A DNA stretch of 64,000 bases from Streptomyces sp. NBC_00654. Lineage in GTDB: Bacteria; Actinomycetota; Actinomycetes; Streptomycetales; Streptomycetaceae. Shown here one piece after another: positions 3,558 to 10,074 of the stretch; positions within the stretch are counted from its first letter, which is position 1; every line of letters begins with the position of its first letter. A program made the position numbers and the translations under genes. The DNA lies in assembly GCF_026341775.1 (NCBI RefSeq), contig NZ_JAPEOB010000004.1, forward strand, positions 1-64,000. Direction: 5' to 3'. Under the pieces are notes generated by a model, which was not told the DNA's origin, did not search any database, and was given only the letters and a program-made list of their open reading frames with translations.

Positions 3558-4841
3558 ATGCGCGTCATGATCGTCGTGTGGCCCCTGCCGGCCCACCTCT
3601 ATCCCGCACTCCCACTGGCCTGGGCGCTGCAGGGCGCGGGACACGAGGTCTGCGTCGCCTCGCACCCCGATCTGGCCAGTGTCATCACAGCGGCCGGGTT
3701 CGACGCGGTCACGCTCGGCAACCCGGAGACGATGCCCTCGCCGTCGGCGGTGGGCGACTTCCTCCCCTCCGAGGAACAACGAAGGCGTCTCACCGAGGCG
3801 CTCTCCCTGTCGCCGGAGGACCATGTGTGGGCGACCTTCAGCACCTACACCTACGCGTCCTCGCGGATCTTCCACCCGGAGGACGGCGCCCCGGAGGAGT
3901 GCTGGGCAGGTGTGGACGCCCTGGTCTCCAAGGCACGTCACTGGCGTCCGGACCTGGTGCTCTGGGATCCGAACTGGCCGTCCGGGGCGGTGGCGGCGCG
4001 GGACTGCGGCGCGGCACACGCACGGGTGCTGTGGGGGCACGACTTCGTCGGTTGGGCTGCCCACAGGACCGCCCAGGGCCGGGAGGCGCTGAGGACGGCC
4101 GGCCTGGCCGATCCCGTGACGGAGCTGGTGCGGCCGTGCGCCGAGCGGTACGGCGTCACGGTCGACGACGAACTGCTACTCGGCCAGTTCACCGTCGACC
4201 CGATGCTGCCGGACATGCAACTGCGGGCTCCGTGCCGCAGGGTTCCGGTCCGCCGCATCCCCTACGGGGGGCCTGATGTCGTCCCTGCGTGGCTGCACAC
4301 GCCGACCGGCCGACCGCGGCTGGCAGTGTCACTGGGCACGACACAGCGCGCGTACGACAACGACCGCGGCCTGGTCGCGGATCTACTCGACGTAGTGTCC
4401 GGTCTGGATGTCGACGTGGTCGCGACCTTCGACGCGTTGCAACTGGCGGGCAGGCCGGTGCCGGACAACGTACGCACGGTCAGCTATCTGCCACTCGGCC
4501 TGCTGCTGCCGACCTGCTCGGCGATCGTCCACCACGGCGGCATCGGCACGCTCACGGCGGCGGTCGCGCACGGAGTGCCCCAGTTCGTGGTGGCGGACGC
4601 GACGGCGGCGTACGCGGGCAACGCGCGCTATGTGCACGACTACGGAGCCGGCCTGACCGTCGGCCCGGGGACGGCTGCGGACGAGATGCGGAAGAACCTG
4701 GTGCGGGTACTGACGGAGCCCTCGTTCCAAGACGCCGCAGAGCAGTTGCGCCGCGACTGGCTTGCCGTGCCGAGCCCCAACGACATCGTGCCCGTGCTAG
4801 AGGGACTCGTGTCGTCGCTTCGCCAGGGTCACCGCATCTGA
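3558..4841 (+). CDS. Glycosyltransferase, GT-B fold, GT1 family (1 of 3)
   Basis: A 427-residue macrolide/aromatic-polyketide type glycosyltransferase that would move an activated deoxysugar to the aglycone or to another sugar. The N-terminal acceptor domain starts with the usual beta-strand and GHEV helix. The C-terminal donor domain carries VHHGGIGT (about 320-327) for the nucleotide diphosphate. The start at 3558 follows a GGAGGAG at 3544-3550. It is clearly paralogous to the glycosyltransferase at 13189 (both begin with an R(V/I)xxVVWPxxAHLYP stretch) and less close to the one at 15573. The acyltransferase gene begins 28 bp downstream, so a shared sugar is plausible. Donor and acceptor cannot be assigned. 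Confidence 0.93.
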   Translation: MRVMIVVWPLPAHLYPALPLAWALQGAGHEVCVASHPDLASVITAAGFDAVTLGNPETMPSPSAVGDFLPSEEQRRRLTEALSLSPEDHVWATFSTYTYASSRIFHPEDGAPEECWAGVDALVSKARHWRPDLVLWDPNWPSGAVAARDCGAAHARVLWGHDFVGWAAHRTAQGREALRTAGLADPVTELVRPCAERYGVTVDDELLLGQFTVDPMLPDMQLRAPCRRVPVRRIPYGGPDVVPAWLHTPTGRPRLAVSLGTTQRAYDNDRGLVADLLDVVSGLDVDVVATFDALQLAGRPVPDNVRTVSYLPLGLLLPTCSAIVHHGGIGTLTAAVAHGVPQFVVADATAAYAGNARYVHDYGAGLTVGPGTAADEMRKNLVRVLTEPSFQDAAEQLRRDWLAVPSPNDIVPVLEGLVSSLRQGHRI

Positions 4842-4869
4842 CTGCCGTACTGGACGCAAAGGAGGCATC

Positions 4870-6063
4870 ATGACAGCGTCACCGAGCACGTCGTCGACCG
4901 CGAGCGAGCGGTCACGGTTACCCTCTCTCACCGGTGCCAGGTTCCTCGCCGCCTGCATGGTGCTGGTCTGTCATGTGGGCGTCTCCTTGATTCCCCGGCT
5001 CGGAAACACACGGGCGGCCGACTATCAGCGTTACTTCGACGCCGCGGGAAACGTCGGCGTGTCCTTCTTCTTCGTGCTGAGCGGTTTCATCCTCACCTGG
5101 GTGAGCAGGCCGGACGCCCCCCCGGGGCGTTTCTGGCGCAGGCGTCTCGTGAAGATCTTCCCGAACCACCTCGTCACCCTGGCGGCCGCGCTGTTGCTGA
5201 TGCTGTCCGCGAGTGTGGCAATCACTGCCGTCAACACGGTACCGACGGTCTTCCTCGTGCAGAGCTGGATCCCCGACCAGGAGGCGGTCATCAACTACGG
5301 TGCCAACGCGCCGAGTTGGTCCCTCGCCTGCGAGTTGCTGTTCTATCTGTCGTTCCCCCTGCTGCTTCGGCTGACGCGGGGCATCCGGCCGCAGCACCTG
5401 TGGCGGTGGGTGGTGGGCGTGGCCGTCGTGATCGCCCTGGTTCCGCTGTTGGCCCGGCTGTTGCCCGGACAGCCGCGGATGCCGTTGACGAACGAGCCGT
5501 GGTGGGAGGTGTGGTTCACCTACTACTTCCCCGTCACCCGCATGCTCGAGTTCGTCCTCGGTGTCCTGATGGCACTGATCGTTCTGTATCGGCGCCGGAT
5601 CCCCCTCGGGCGCGGGCCGGCTCTGCTCCTGGCAGCGGGGGCCTTCGTCGGCGGGTCGCACCTGCCCGGCATGTACGACCGGGTGGCGGCGACCGCGCTC
5701 CCCATCGCCCTGCTGATCGCCGCCCTCGCCAAGGCTGACGCGCTTGACCGGGGCAGGGTGCTGGGCAGCCGGCCCATGGTCCGCCTCGGCGAGATCTCGT
5801 TCAGCCTGTATCTGGTGCACTACCTCGTCGTGTGTTACGGACCGATCGGTGCCGTCCACCCGGAAAACTGGGCGAAGCAGGTGAGCGTCCCCGAGGCGCT
5901 GGGGTACGGGATCCTGACGCTGGTGATCAGCCTGGTCCTGGCGTGGCTGCTGTACACGTTCGTGGAGGCCCCGGCCATGCGGCGCTTCAGTCGCCGGGCG
6001 CCCGGGAAGGTTCCTCCGCGCCTGGAGGAACCCGCCACGGAGCGGCCGGCCCCCACCATCTAG
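4870..6063 (+). CDS. Membrane acyltransferase family 3 (sugar O-acyltransferase)
   Basis: A 397-residue integral membrane protein of the acyltransferase-3 (OafA/YrhL) family, with about ten hydrophobic segments, which typically acylates sugar hydroxyls. The N-terminal signature includes LTGARFLAACMVLVCHVG, with the conserved arginine and histidine, followed by FFFVLSGF. The ATG at 4870 has AAAGGAGG upstream. Acetylated deoxysugars are known in trioxacarcin-type antibiotics, which fits this role; a link to one hydroxyl is inference. The stop codon TAG is part of the CTAG target duplicated by the neighbouring IS. The same TAG would end the gene without the insertion, so the protein is unaltered. 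Confidence 0.9.
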   Translation: MTASPSTSSTASERSRLPSLTGARFLAACMVLVCHVGVSLIPRLGNTRAADYQRYFDAAGNVGVSFFFVLSGFILTWVSRPDAPPGRFWRRRLVKIFPNHLVTLAAALLLMLSASVAITAVNTVPTVFLVQSWIPDQEAVINYGANAPSWSLACELLFYLSFPLLLRLTRGIRPQHLWRWVVGVAVVIALVPLLARLLPGQPRMPLTNEPWWEVWFTYYFPVTRMLEFVLGVLMALIVLYRRRIPLGRGPALLLAAGAFVGGSHLPGMYDRVAATALPIALLIAALAKADALDRGRVLGSRPMVRLGEISFSLYLVHYLVVCYGPIGAVHPENWAKQVSVPEALGYGILTLVISLVLAWLLYTFVEAPAMRRFSRRAPGKVPPRLEEPATERPAPTI

Positions 6064-6081
6064 GACTTGTCCGGGCGATCA
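6064..6081 (+). repeat. IS left terminal inverted repeat
   Basis: Perfect 18-bp inverted match to 9872-9889. Its inner end contains the transposase stop codon (reverse strand TGA at 6079-6081). The flanking CTAG at 6060-6063 supplies the stop codon of the upstream acyltransferase. Confidence 0.95.
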
Positions 6082-6459
6082 CGTGCGGAGCCAGATGACG
6101 AGGGCTGCTGCGGTGGCGGTGCCGAGGAAGACGTAGCCGCGCTTGTCGTATCGAGTGGGTGCGCCACGAGGCGCCGTGGAATCGAGTGAGGTGAGAGACC
6201 TTCACCGCCAGTTTGTCGCAGCAATCCGGCTGAAGCTGGGGGCAGTTCGGCTCGGGGGATGCCGAGTCGAGCGGTAAGCAGCCCCGACAACGTCGGGACG
6301 GGCTGGCACTGCCAGACAGCCCGGGTCCGGCAAGTGAGATGGGAAGGTGCACGCGAGGAATCAGTGCTTGACGCCCCGTAATTACGACACCGGCTCCAAC
6401 CTGGCGGATATGGGCCGGACGCAGTGCACGACCGCCATTGACTGGTGGTCGACTCCGAA

Positions 6460-6478
6460 GCCGACTCCACTTATCGGC
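6460..6478 (+). other. Candidate EBS1 hairpin loop of the group II intron
   Basis: GCCGA and TCGGC form a 5-bp stem around the 9-nt loop CTCCACTTA. Loop bases CCACTT (6467-6472) pair with the six exon bases directly 5' of the intron, GAGTGG (6153-6158), with one G-U wobble, as expected of an EBS1-IBS1 contact in domain I. This supports the 5' boundary independently of the reading-frame argument. Confidence 0.65.
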
Positions 6479-6759
6479 GGGGAGGCCACGCCGAAAGCCT
6501 GCGGCGTAAGCGTGGCGATGCTGTCGGGGTAGAGCTGGGCACCTCACCCGTCGATCGATTCCGTGGTGAACGTGGGAACTGCCCACGGTCGCCCCAGGCC
6601 GGACCTCCAGTTCGGTCGAGGGCAGGTCCATCGCCGGCTGATGGCCGTCGGGCAGGGCGGAGGCTCCGTAGTACTCCGAGGCCGGGAGAGCCGGCCACAC
6701 GGGGAAGGGAGCCAGCAAGTCAGCAGTAAGGAAACTGGAATGCCAGGAGGTTGTCGCCG

Positions 6760-8190
6760 GTGAATACCGACGAGCTGGAATGGGCCTTGATGAAGGCCGA
6801 ACGCCGGGTACTGGAGATCCAGACCAAGCTGCACCGTTGGGCAACCGATGATTCTCATCGCAGGTTCGACGATCTGTTCAATCTCGTGGCCGACCCCGCC
6901 TTTCTGTTGATGGCGTGGGATCGGGTCCGGGGAAACAAGGGTGCCCGCACGGCCGGAGTGGACGGCAAGACCGCACGCTCCATCGAGGCCGGGCAAGGAG
7001 TCGAGGCTTTCCTCGGCACGCTGCGAACTCAACTGAGAGAACGTAGCTTCCAGCCGGTCCCTGTCCGTGAACGGATGATCCCGAAGGCGAACGGCAAGCT
7101 CCGTCGTCTCGGCATTCCGACCGTGGCGGACCGGGTGGTCCAGGCATCCTTGAAACTGGTGCTGGAGCCGGTGTTCGAAGCGGATTTCCTTCCGTACTCG
7201 TACGGATTCCGCCCGAATCGCCGGGCTCATGACGCGATCGCCGAGACGCACTACCTTGCCAGCCATTCCTACGAATGGGTGGTGGAAGGCGACATCACGG
7301 CGTGCTTCGACGAGATCTCGCACACGGCTTTGATGGATCGGGTGCGGAATCGGATCGGGGACAAGCGGGTGTTGCTCCTGGTGAAGGCGTTCCTCAAGTC
7401 CGGGATCATGTCCCGGGACGGCGCCTTCACGGACACACGCACCGGAACCCCGCAGGGTGGAATTCTCTCGCCCCTGCTGGCCAACATCGCACTCTCGGCC
7501 CTGGACGAACACATCGCCCAGGCTCCCGGAGGACCAGGCAGTACCTCCGGGGAACGGCGCAAGAGACGTCGCCGAGGGTTACCCAACTACCGGCTGGTCC
7601 GGTACGCGGACGACTTCCTCGTACTCGTCTCCGGCAGCCGGGAGCACGCCGAGGAACTGCGAAGGGGTGTCGCAGAGGCGCTGACACCGATGGGCCTTTG
7701 CCTGTCGGTCGAGAAAACGAGGATCACTCACATTGACGAGGGCTTCGACTTCCTCGGATGGCGCGTCCAGCGTCACCGGAAGCGAGGCACTGACCGGCAG
7801 TACATCTACACCTATCCGGCGCGGAAATCTGTGCGCTCGGCGACGGCCAAGGTGAAGGAACTGACCGGAAGACAGAATGTCGGTCTTCCGTTGACGTCCC
7901 TACTGCACCAGCTGAACTCGGTGCTGCGGGGATGGTGCGCGTACTTCCGCCCCGGGGTGTCGAACGTCGCTTTCTGCTACCTCAGCCACTTCGCATGGAT
8001 GAGGGTTATTCGGTGGATCCGGCGCAAGCACCCAGGGATTACGTGGAAGCAGCTTCGCCGCCGCTACTGCGACGGCGGCTGGTGGCCCGCCACCGAGGGC
8101 GGAGAACTGTTCAATCCGGCGAAGGTAAGCACGACCAGATACCGATACCGAGGAACAGTGATCCAGAGTCCGTGGCCCACTACGGCATGA
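6760..8190 (+). CDS. ltrA: Group II intron reverse transcriptase/maturase
   Basis: An intron-encoded protein of 476 residues from GTG 6760, preceded by AGGAGG at 6745-6750. A TTG at 6751 lies too close to that RBS. It has the reverse transcriptase palm with AGVDG near the N-terminus, the IPKANGKLRRLGIPT motif, TPQGGILSPLLANI and the catalytic YADD at about 282-285, followed by the maturase (X) domain with GWCAYFR. No HNH/CxxC zinc endonuclease is visible at the C-terminus (it ends near RGTVIQSPW), so mobility would rely on primers other than a cut bottom strand. The reading frame is intact, so the intron may still be active. Confidence 0.95.
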   Translation: MNTDELEWALMKAERRVLEIQTKLHRWATDDSHRRFDDLFNLVADPAFLLMAWDRVRGNKGARTAGVDGKTARSIEAGQGVEAFLGTLRTQLRERSFQPVPVRERMIPKANGKLRRLGIPTVADRVVQASLKLVLEPVFEADFLPYSYGFRPNRRAHDAIAETHYLASHSYEWVVEGDITACFDEISHTALMDRVRNRIGDKRVLLLVKAFLKSGIMSRDGAFTDTRTGTPQGGILSPLLANIALSALDEHIAQAPGGPGSTSGERRKRRRRGLPNYRLVRYADDFLVLVSGSREHAEELRRGVAEALTPMGLCLSVEKTRITHIDEGFDFLGWRVQRHRKRGTDRQYIYTYPARKSVRSATAKVKELTGRQNVGLPLTSLLHQLNSVLRGWCAYFRPGVSNVAFCYLSHFAWMRVIRWIRRKHPGITWKQLRRRYCDGGWWPATEGGELFNPAKVSTTRYRYRGTVIQSPWPTTA

Positions 8191-8221
8191 GAATCGGAGT
8201 GTCCCAATCGGGGCTTGTGGA

Positions 8222-8255
8222 GAGCCCGGTGCCCGGAGACGGGCACGCCGGGTTC
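8222..8255 (+). ncRNA. Group II intron domain V
   Basis: A 34-nt hairpin that begins GAGCCCGGTG, with the catalytic AGC triad at 8223-8225, a GAGA-like tetraloop in the middle and GGGTTC at the 3' end. It has the size and shape of bacterial group II domain V and lies 31 nt after the maturase stop. Domain VI and the 3' end follow to 8319. Confidence 0.88.
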
Positions 8256-8753
8256 GGGAGGCGGCTCGGGGAAACCCACTGGTGGAAACACCAGCAGGGC
8301 GCCCCGAGTCGACCTCACCGACGGCTCTGGCGTGCTTGAGCTTGTTGATGGCTCGCTCGACGGTGTTGCGTTTCTTGTACCGCTCTTCGTTGAACGCGGG
8401 CGGTCGCCCGCCGCCTGAGCCTTTGCGTAGGCGGGCGGCCTGGCTGTCGGTCTTCTCCGGGATCGTGTGCCGGACGCCTCGGCGCCGCAAGTAGTCGCGG
8501 ACGAGGCCGTTGCTGTAAGCCTTGTCCGCAGCAAGGCTGTCCGGCTTCTTGCGGGGCCTGCCCGGCCCGAGACGGGGGACCCGGATCTTCTCCAGCACCG
8601 ATTTGAACTGGGTGCAGTCCGCCCGCTGCCCTGGCGTGACGACCAGGGACAGCGGACGGCAGCGGCCATCCGCGCTCAGGTGGATTTTGCTGGTGAAACC
8701 GCCCCGCGAGCGGCCCAAGCCCTCGCCTCCCGCACCACCTCCACCAAGCGGCC

Positions 8754-8765
8754 GTGAAAACTCTG
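8754..8765 (-). other. Probable programmed -1 frameshift site of the transposase
   Basis: On the minus strand the reading changes here from the upstream frame (DETPWQSFHG) to the downstream frame (VAEFSRPLGG) around a run of four T (AGTTTTC). The upstream frame stops at 8676-8678 after unrelated residues, while the downstream frame carries the rest of the catalytic domain. A slip on the T run joins them. Confidence 0.6.
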
Positions 8766-9172
8766 CCACGGCGTCTCGTCCTGGTGTTCTGCCTTCGCGG
8801 CCCCCTTTGAAGCGGGGGCCGGCGGCGGGCCGGTGCGGGCGCCGGCCGCATGCTGATGCGCACGCACGACGGTGGAGTCGACAGAGATGTCCCAGTCGAT
8901 CCCCCCAACCGCGTCGGCCTCGGCCTGGACCTGCTGGAGCAGACGCTCCCAAGTCCCGTCGGCCGACCACAGACGGTGGCGTTCATAGACGGTCTTCCAC
9001 GGCCCGAACCTCTCGGGCAGATCACGCCACTGCACTCCGGTCCGCACCCGGTGCAGAATCCCGTCGATCACCTGCCGATGATCCCGCCACCTGCCACAAC
9101 GCCCGTTACTGACCGGCAGAAACGGCCGCAGCCGTGCCCACTCGGCATCCGTGAGATCGCCCCGCCCCATGC

Positions 9173-9784
9173 TCACCTAAACGATTGGGCACCGCGGCCG
9201 TCACGCAGGCAGCACGACACCTGCGTACTGGCCGCTCTCCGCCTGGAGAGGAACACCCGGCGGGTTGACAGTTCGATCTCTGCGACGACGACGGCAATAT
9301 CCTCTCCGACCTCGAAGTGCCCTGCCGGACTCGCCGCAGGGCGGTCGTCGATCTCTCTGAAGGAGACCAGCCCGAAGATCCCATCCCCGAGGCCGACGAG
9401 GACACCGATGGGAAGCACCTTCTCAACCGTCCCGCGGAATTCCTGGCCCACCACTGTGCGGTCGGCGAAAGCCTCCAGGGGGTCGGGCTCCAGTGCCTTC
9501 AAAGACAGTCTGGCCTCAGCGTTGTGGGTATCGAACCCCATGAACTCGCACGCGACACGCTGCCCTACCTGAACAGCATCGGCGGGATCATCGAAGCGCC
9601 GCCAGGACAGTTCGGGGATACCGAGGAACCCGACACCGGGCAGGGTGGGATGACCAGGCCCGTCGTCCAAGGCCACGAAGACCCCGAATTCTTCGATCAC
9701 CGCGACGGTGCCGGACAGGATGTCGCCGGGGTGCAGGGACTTCAGGAACGCCCAAAGCTCCGGGCTACCAGATTGCCAATCCAT
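9173..9784 (-). CDS. Tandem S1-domain RNA-binding protein carried inside the IS
   Basis: A 203-residue protein from ATG 9784 (it starts MDWQSGSPELW). It contains two OB-fold S1 domains: residues about 15-95 (GDILSGTVAVIEEFGVFVAL) and about 108-190 (FRGTVEKVLPIGVLVGLGDG). It resembles ribosomal-protein-S1-like RNA binders but has only two repeats and no catalytic domain. Its stop codon overlaps the start of the transposase gene (TGA inside GTGAGCATG), so the two are translationally linked. Both lie between the IS inverted repeats, so it looks like a passenger gene. Longer in-frame starts reach into the inverted repeat. Its role is unknown; effects on transposase mRNA or frameshifting are conceivable. 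Confidence 0.85.
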   Translation of the reverse strand: MDWQSGSPELWAFLKSLHPGDILSGTVAVIEEFGVFVALDDGPGHPTLPGVGFLGIPELSWRRFDDPADAVQVGQRVACEFMGFDTHNAEARLSLKALEPDPLEAFADRTVVGQEFRGTVEKVLPIGVLVGLGDGIFGLVSFREIDDRPAASPAGHFEVGEDIAVVVAEIELSTRRVFLSRRRAASTQVSCCLRDGRGAQSFR

Positions 9785-9794
9785 ACCCGCAACC

Positions 9795-9812
9795 CTGGCA
9801 CACGTGTGCCAG
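9795..9812. promoter_or_regulatory. Perfect 18-bp palindrome upstream of the S1 gene
   Basis: CTGGCACACGTGTGCCAG is a perfect palindrome ending 11 bp before the ATG of the S1-domain gene. Its place between the IS end and the coding region fits an operator or an mRNA structure controlling the S1/transposase operon. Confidence 0.55.
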
Positions 9813-9871
9813 TCATGTCCTTGAACCGAGGCCCCGTCCGTAATCCCGCCATGCCTCAACCGCCAGCACCT

Positions 9872-9889
9872 TGATCGCCCGGACAAGTC
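9872..9889 (-). repeat. IS right terminal inverted repeat
   Basis: Perfect 18-bp inverted copy of 6064-6081, followed by CTAG at 9890-9893. No similar sequence is visible between the S1 gene and the transposase start, so the S1 gene lies within the mobile unit. Confidence 0.95.
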
Positions 9890-9959
9890 CTAGGCGCCGC
9901 CCGGGCGCCGTCTCAGCAGTTCCGGGCACGGGCCTTTCGAGGCGCTGTGACCGGTGACC

Positions 9960-10007
9960 GCCCATGTCGCGGTCGGTCGTCCACGGACGACCGACCGCGA
10001 CATGGGC
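9960..10007. terminator. Strong hairpin between the IS and the glycosylase gene
   Basis: A 21-bp perfect stem, GCCCATGTCGCGGTCGGTCG plus T, with its complement around a CCACGG loop (the two outer loop pairs can also close). There is no T run. It probably ends transcription from the acyltransferase side or from the IS. It could also act in the leader of the gene at 10075. Confidence 0.55.
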
Positions 10008-10074
10008 GCTGTTGTGCCGCTGCTAAACTCGCTGCTCCTTTTGCGAGCCATCAGAAAATCGGAGGGCCTTTTCC

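Follow-up and report, generated by a model that had tools for sequence, protein, structure and literature searches.

What is a gene for an S1-domain protein doing inside an insertion sequence (IS)? The question is raised by an IS5-family element at positions 6063–9890, on the minus strand, of the window, i.e. the 64,000-nucleotide stretch of Streptomyces sp. NBC_00654 DNA analysed here (contig NZ_JAPEOB010000004.1), in which one pair of ends encloses both a transposase and an S1-domain gene. An earlier note on this DNA had suggested that the S1 protein controls frameshifting in the transposase, and that the gene defines an unrecognised IS subgroup. We find that the S1 gene lies within the element and is a true passenger: it has been carried with its ends to unlinked sites, and the same ends carry many other single genes. 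The element is therefore probably a transporter IS (tIS), an IS5-family element carrying one captured host gene, with S1 as selected cargo rather than a dedicated transposase regulator. Its parts, in window coordinates, are these:

6061–6062, no strand: TA target duplication, left side, in a CTAG context (sister-copy comparison)
6063–6081, plus strand: terminal inverted repeat GGACTTGTCCGGGCGATCA, the right end in element sense, on the transposase 3' side
6079–6158, minus strand: C-terminal part of the transposase, severed by the intron, with a stop codon overlapping the repeat at its inner edge (comparison with the second copy, L015)
6159–8318, plus strand: group II intron, 5' GTGCG ... CTCAC 3', antisense to the transposase (exact junction against L015; Rfam RF00029)
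6751–8190, plus strand: intron-encoded reverse transcriptase/maturase, 479 amino acids (PF00078, PF08388; TIGR04416, 373.5 bits, cut-off 300)
8319–8970, minus strand: transposase frame B as far as the intron, with the DDE domain and in a reading frame other than that of A (PF01609, NF033580)
8676–9176, minus strand: transposase frame A, 166 amino acids, DUF4096 (PF13340, E 4.2e-28; NF033580, 137.2 bits, cut-off 110)
9173–9784, minus strand: S1 passenger gene, two S1 domains, 203 amino acids in the window copy (PF00575)
9177–9204, minus strand: leader of the transposase; its counterpart in bare sister elements can be aligned with it
9872–9890, minus strand: terminal inverted repeat, the left end in element sense, on the S1 side
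9891–9892, no strand: TA target duplication, right side

Counted with the CTAG, the ends form a perfect 22-bp inverted repeat (6060–6081 and 9872–9893), which bears out the terminal repeats and CTAG context described in the earlier note. The element proper runs from GGAC to GTCC and is bounded by TA on both sides; sister copies with TTA/GG at one boundary and CC/TAG at the other indicate that the target duplication is TA rather than CTAG. Read in this way the element measures 3,828 bp with its intron and 1,668 bp without those 2,160 bp, so that the distance of about 1.6 kb first given between the ends fits the intron-free form but not the element as it stands, the intron having been omitted from that estimate. 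In element sense the order from left to right is S1 gene, transposase frame A (DUF4096), frame B (DDE) and right end. In the whole 9.6-Mb genome the terminal inverted repeat (TIR) pattern, at up to three mismatches, has 8 matches versus 2 for a reversed control. Membership of the IS5 family follows from the matches of the minus-strand transposase to DUF4096 (E 4.2e-28) and DDE_Tnp_1 (E 1.9e-11), from NF033580 (transpos_IS5_3, cut-off 110), reached by frame A with 137.2 bits and by frame B with 110.6 bits, and from IS5-type ends with a short TA-type target duplication. The transposase may belong to the IS427-type group.

The S1 gene could in principle be a resident gene beside which an IS had landed, the outer repeat being a coincidence, and S1 genes are indeed common in Streptomyces chromosomes. 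This is refuted by a second copy in the same genome (L015, G000:C2:36962-39940), which holds the S1 gene between identical ends at an unlinked site and has no intron. The flanks of the two copies are unrelated (identity 0.31 and 0.26), and sequence is shared only between the ends. As reversed-pattern controls are also close to zero, we regard coincidence as having practically no chance of being right. The L015 transposase is interrupted at 4313-5615 of that locus by an insertion matching PF01527, which we take to be IS3-type by our own naming, and a third trace in this genome is a 70-bp left-end fragment (G000:C6). Beyond this strain, two further genomes, G178 and G237, contain S1 elements that have both ends and a transposase matched along its length; in G178 the chromosome end and a plasmid share 5.6 kb, and the two copies there (L070 and L071) are counted as one case. 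In G267 the transposase of the S1 element is degraded, and in L256 (G362) and L257 (G393) the S1 frame is open and both ends are kept while only 54–59 transposase codons are matched. The claim that a tandem S1-domain gene sits inside the element thus stands, the same ends enclosing it in two unlinked copies of its own genome and in several other genomes. In a set of 19 S1 loci, comprising the two copies of this genome, L077 (62% identity) and 16 further loci of at least 70% identity, the left end (up to four mismatches) lies 102–113 bases before the S1 start in 12.

The window copy itself is probably immobile on its own. The interrupting segment has the properties of a group II intron: a maturase/reverse transcriptase (TIGR04416), an RF00029 match at 8220–8318 and an exact insertion without duplication, the junction around the 2,160-bp segment (6159–8318) corresponding to an uninterrupted site in L015. 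Reverse transcriptase and maturase domains are present in the intron-encoded protein, and no endonuclease domain was matched in Pfam. An intron in this antisense orientation cannot be removed from the transposase mRNA by splicing, which implies that the transposase of this copy is broken, and so the copy could move only with transposase supplied in trans. Neither of the two full transposase copies seen in this genome is intact, one being interrupted by the intron and the other (L015) by the IS3-type insertion.

Is the S1 gene, then, a fixed part of this kind of IS? Searched as DNA against 150 genomes, the transposase had matches in 49 at E 1e-100 or better. Of 31 loci examined, 20 have the left end 48 or 57 bases ahead of the start of the transposase, and among these 31 S1 was present at high identity only at the window's own locus; sisters with the same ends and transposases 79–88% identical in DNA are without it, a bare sister being about 1,007 bp long. 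A TIR census of 295 Streptomyces genomes (up to two mismatches, four batches) matched the end pattern in 35/61, 39/80, 30/80 and 32/74 genomes, with the reversed pattern matching once each in G191 and G236 and nowhere else. End pairs with up to two mismatches and up to about 6 kb apart were read by eye; degraded elements and ends at contig edges (many in G073, G149, G264 and G290) are uncounted, and second copies in duplicated terminal regions (L071 and one of G092) were left out. The element set numbers 60, made up of 56 fetched elements, the window element, L015, L070 and L072, and a transposase is present in 53 of them. These 53 comprise 12 bare elements (in five genomes, 7 of them in G055), 2 deleted bare elements, 1 bare element with an insertion (presumably IS21-type, from our own naming of its open reading frame (ORF)) and 38 with extra DNA, among which S1 elements number 4. 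To the question whether S1 is always found inside these ends, the answer is therefore no. Four of the 38 (L180, L182, L196 and L209) hold about 1.8–4.2 kb of extra DNA; with these doubtful long cases excluded, the remaining 34 passenger-bearing elements, S1 included, come from 27 genomes, versus 5 genomes with full-length bare elements among the genomes with fetched elements.

The seven end-bounded elements without a transposase match are three 191-bp pairs and four of 775–1,338 bp. The former (L162, L206 and L215, in three Streptomyces genomes) resemble miniature inverted-repeat transposable elements with the same ends. The latter (L164, L171, L191 and L207) are like mobile cassettes, the same ends enclosing single genes: an APH-like ORF (by eye, without a Pfam match), a GNAT-like ORF (by eye) and a DUF6082 gene.

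The cargo may precede or follow the transposase, and both strands are used. A bare type and an other-passenger type each recur within a genome of their own in several copies that are identical or nearly so; G245 has one passenger element in four copies that show 100% identity throughout, including the cargo, and sit in unrelated flanks. Twenty passenger ORFs judged to be coding were scanned, 18 from transposase-bearing elements and two from the transposase-less L164 and L207, and 14 have no Pfam match at E 0.1. Those that match are YxiG-like (E 1.5e-72), SnoaL/DUF4440, weakly MauE (E 0.047) and, in L207, DUF6082; two others are colicin/pyocin-immunity-like but below cut-off (E 0.00055 and 0.046, the former to PF01320 with 20.4 bits vs 21.2). 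One passenger without a Pfam match is widespread (373 proteins at E 0.001 or better), and some cargo types were met once. On the transposase tree, in which the degraded rows L068 and L061 are unreliable, the S1 elements are not one group, the window copy and L015 standing apart from L070 and L072 (node support 0.97), and several other cargo types are likewise dispersed. Because cargo types do not group on this tree, the pattern suggests that cargo may have been exchanged between transposase lineages, an appearance that recombination within the transposase could mimic. S1 as the defining mark of an IS subgroup is rejected, since S1-less sisters share the ends and the S1 elements are scattered on the tree. 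Copies that end at the transposase and lack S1, which the earlier note had named as a refuting case, exist for sister elements but were not found for the S1-bearing type.

The S1 protein might nevertheless regulate transposition, binding the transposase mRNA or the ribosome and tuning transposase translation or frameshifting. In IS5 elements the gene lies directly upstream of the transposase on the same strand, domains 3–4 of ribosomal protein S1 (bS1), to which the passenger is related, bind RNA, and among 22 transposases checked a two-frame layout with a -1 shift was found in 14 (one frame in 4, another shift in 2, no answer in 2). As a rule, however, frameshifting and S1 do not go together: 13 of the 14 two-frame transposases, which include those of bare elements (L172 and L194) and of other-passenger elements, are without S1, and the four single-frame transposases are those of L163, L188, L204 and an S1 element, L072, which like L163 has 312 codons. 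The proposal that S1 controls frameshifting is thus not supported. The S1 frame also remains open in loci whose transposase has decayed or all but disappeared (L066, L067, L074, L076, L256 and L257), and in IS630 elements, described below, S1 follows a one-frame transposase in three identical copies.

Nor is the overlap between the two genes, which the earlier note had stressed, of general significance. It is present in the window copy, where the S1 stop overlaps the transposase GTG start (GTGA, 9173–9176), but is private to that copy, in which a one-base length difference near the 3' end extends the S1 frame to 203 amino acids; in the uninterrupted close copies compared, S1 measures 186–194. 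Of 18 other loci, 16 can be aligned at this point (not L113 and L077) and none has the overlap; the transposase start is still visible in nine, with S1 ending 30–31 bases before its ATG in eight and 54 in L064. Translational coupling of stop and start as a family feature was accordingly rejected. A conserved hairpin or operator upstream of S1 was likewise rejected: the palindrome CTGGCACACGTGTGCCAG, ten bases ahead of the S1 ATG, is perfect in the window copy, and its right arm TGTGCCA is found in 13 of 15 aligned copies, its left arm TGGCACA in only 5. Together with the comparison of frame layouts, the private nature of the overlap leaves the regulator quite improbable.

The protein itself matches PF00575 (E 2.9e-20), and its residues 11–184 align with residues 200–365 of M. 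smegmatis bS1, i.e. domains 3–4 (E 1.2e-28). Unlike bS1, the product of rpsA, it has only two domains, carries an extra segment DDGPxHPxxPGV in the first of them and falls far below the rpsA equivalog cut-offs (NF005911, 104.1 bits, cut-off 691). A search of the 295 genomes, with counts from the best rows, gave at least 13 rows in 11 genomes at 70% identity or more among the matches listed, with a partial match at 72% in G236, and at least 35 relatives at 50–62% over at least 149 residues, with two shorter ones; a very common match at 38% is taken as rpsA itself. Across the order, 30 of the 197 genomes sampled have a match at E 1e-35 or better, four of them from another family. Longer chromosomal relatives of 249–360 amino acids with a second, weaker S1-type match are common in Streptomyces (L082, L093-L096, L103, L105, L109, L111 and others). 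The comparison suggests that the S1 protein derives from bS1 domains 3–4 via a standalone chromosomal gene family.

The S1 gene is under purifying selection, the ratio of nonsynonymous to synonymous substitution rates (dN/dS) having a median of 0.33 (range 0.17–0.53, 120 non-independent pairs) and lying at 0.24–0.53 for eight copies with a degraded or absent transposase, each against its nearest relative. This bears on a further alternative, that S1 is a neutral hitchhiker caught by accident and without a selected role. Capture does look opportunistic, with diverse cargo and some types met once, but a dN/dS of about 0.33, full-length S1 frames beside degraded transposases and the existence of two separate S1 clades in two IS families all speak against neutrality, which we consider to have a low probability.

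The second IS family came to light through S1 relatives at about 58% identity that sit after an IS630-type transposase. When the neighbours of 52 S1 relatives from beyond the IS5 set were compared, the informative cluster besides the S1 clusters was an IS630 transposase piece beside four loci; ArsR-like and SDR-like clusters, named by eye, also comprise four loci each. In L081 both IS630 ends surround the transposase, with its frame interrupted, and S1, and a complete copy is present in G029. G365 contains three copies of an IS630 element with S1 at three sites, 100% identical over about 1,945 bp (a BLAST figure) and with an open 373-codon transposase; further complete copies are found in G412 and G440, a second G440 copy being longer. 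Assignment to IS630 is based on PF13358 (DDE_3) in the L218 transposase and on the TIR and TA ends of L081, L249-L251, L253 and L255. The IS630 end pattern was matched in 31 of 70 chosen genomes. Eleven pairs were fetched; apart from L223, which has only traces of a transposase, they encode the greater part of it, several of them in pieces. S1 is the cargo in one of the eleven, and MDMPI/DinB-like, pyridoxamine-oxidase-like, glyoxalase, DUF6368 and APH-like genes are also carried. On the S1 tree the IS5-borne clade (node 0.84) and the IS630-borne clade (node 0.93) are separate, with other relatives nearby, and because of this separation two captures of S1 are likely.

The variety of cargo also bears on the idea that S1 is one of several protective or immunity-type cargoes that aid the host in conflicts with its neighbours. 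The colicin/pyocin-immunity-like passenger (PF01320, E 0.00055, 20.4 bits, cut-off 21.2), the YxiG-like one and the many small proteins without Pfam matches would fit such a role. The SnoaL/DUF4440, glyoxalase, pyridoxamine oxidase and APH-like passengers are of other kinds, however, no toxin was seen by eye in the 14 largest neighbour clusters of S1 relatives (neighbours without a Pfam scan), PADLOC returned no match for S1, and we know of no S1 immunity family. We judge this explanation unlikely. As a rule S1 neither tracks the frameshifting transposases nor vanishes with a lost transposase, and for this reason a host-serving cargo is favoured: most likely, by analogy with its fold family, a predicted RNA- or ribosome-binding protein.

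How might a host gene come to lie between IS ends? Capture would begin with an IS sitting beside a gene and a second, like end that lies, or arises, on the far side of that gene; from then on the transposase would act on the outermost ends, leaving the inner one to decay. Possible intermediates are L187, where an outer and an inner left end (one mismatch) surround a SnoaL gene, and L161, where an inner (three mismatches) and an outer right end surround its gene. For S1, the IS would have inserted at the 3' end of the gene, with the farther end then used and the inner one decayed. The left end of bare elements is alignable with the transposase leader of S1 elements, in which S1 usually stops at a GTGAC just inside the point where the inner left repeat, now decayed, would be.

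Several observations weigh against the selected-cargo interpretation or parts of it. The left end is not in place in 7 of the 19 S1 loci (L066, L067, L069 and L074-L077); most of these are taken as degraded copies, because by eye the bases before S1 resemble those of the others, except in L066, L075 and L077. The comparison of empty and filled sites that had been proposed yielded no empty site, the joined flanks of the window copy matching only its own genome among 290. The four long cases in the census (L180, L182, L196 and L209) may each be two separate ends around ordinary DNA, and the capture route is drawn from few intermediates (L187 and L161). On the S1 tree the node joining the two IS-borne clades has a support of only 0.40, so that S1 may instead have passed between the IS families, and some rows of the IS630-side clade have no detected IS630 mark (L112, L087, L100, L084, L026 and L124). 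The purifying selection seen on S1 may stem from benefits to the element in addition to those to the host, and PADLOC's lack of a defence match for S1 also counts here.

The selected-cargo interpretation agrees with the concept of tIS elements (PMC9330008 and PMC3129680), in which IS ends enclose a gene unrelated to transposition. The window element has just this arrangement, and movement of the whole unit, passenger included, is documented by the two S1 copies in G000, the four G245 copies and the three IS630 copies with S1. What differs from tIS as described there is that the single genes carried by one lineage are many and alternative, placed on either side, and that cargo of the S1 kind turns up again in a second IS family. 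L256 and L257, which keep both ends and S1 with little transposase left, resemble the mobile insertion cassettes named in PMC3129680; they derive from an S1-bearing IS, and their mobility is putative. Compared with the IS5 family in general (NF033580, DUF4096), the elements share a DDE transposase, often in two overlapping frames, a TIR of about 19 bp beginning GG, a TA/CTAG target and a bare length of about 1,007 bp; unlike in the usual family members, extra DNA lies between end and transposase in 38 of 53. Passengers are also reported for Tn3-family transposons in PMC7371123. At title and abstract level, with subscription journals and ISfinder outside the scope, the literature yielded neither an IS that carries S1 as a passenger nor a description of these Streptomyces lineages.

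Around the insertion, an upstream acyltransferase gene (4870–6063) takes its TAG stop (6061–6063) from the duplicated TA plus the element's first G, and an empty site would read TAG too. A perfect 24-bp inverted repeat with a 2-base loop, terminator-like, lies just outside the element (9959–10008), and an AlkZ-like DNA glycosylase gene (PF06224, 10075–11241) adjoins the insertion. From the ORF list, the neighbouring genes give the impression of a secondary-metabolite cluster.

Annotation usually treats ISs as bare transposase units and overlooks their passengers. Yet in one IS lineage passenger-bearing elements are present in more genomes than full-length bare ones, which would make these elements small gene couriers rather than bare parasites. 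A wider picture, which we offer tentatively and would not yet rely on, is that the two unrelated IS5-type and IS630-type lineages of Streptomyces are systems of single-gene capture and carriage, in which small host genes would be taken up between an old inner and a new outer end and exchanged among transposase lineages, with an overlapping pool in which a selected protein made of bS1 domains 3–4 recurs and would act on host translation. The intermediates with inner and outer ends open gene capture by ISs to testing, and a related S1 gene in two IS families makes selection on cargo directly testable. Orphan S1-domain genes and small hypothetical genes that recur beside broken Streptomyces transposases may be explained in the same way.

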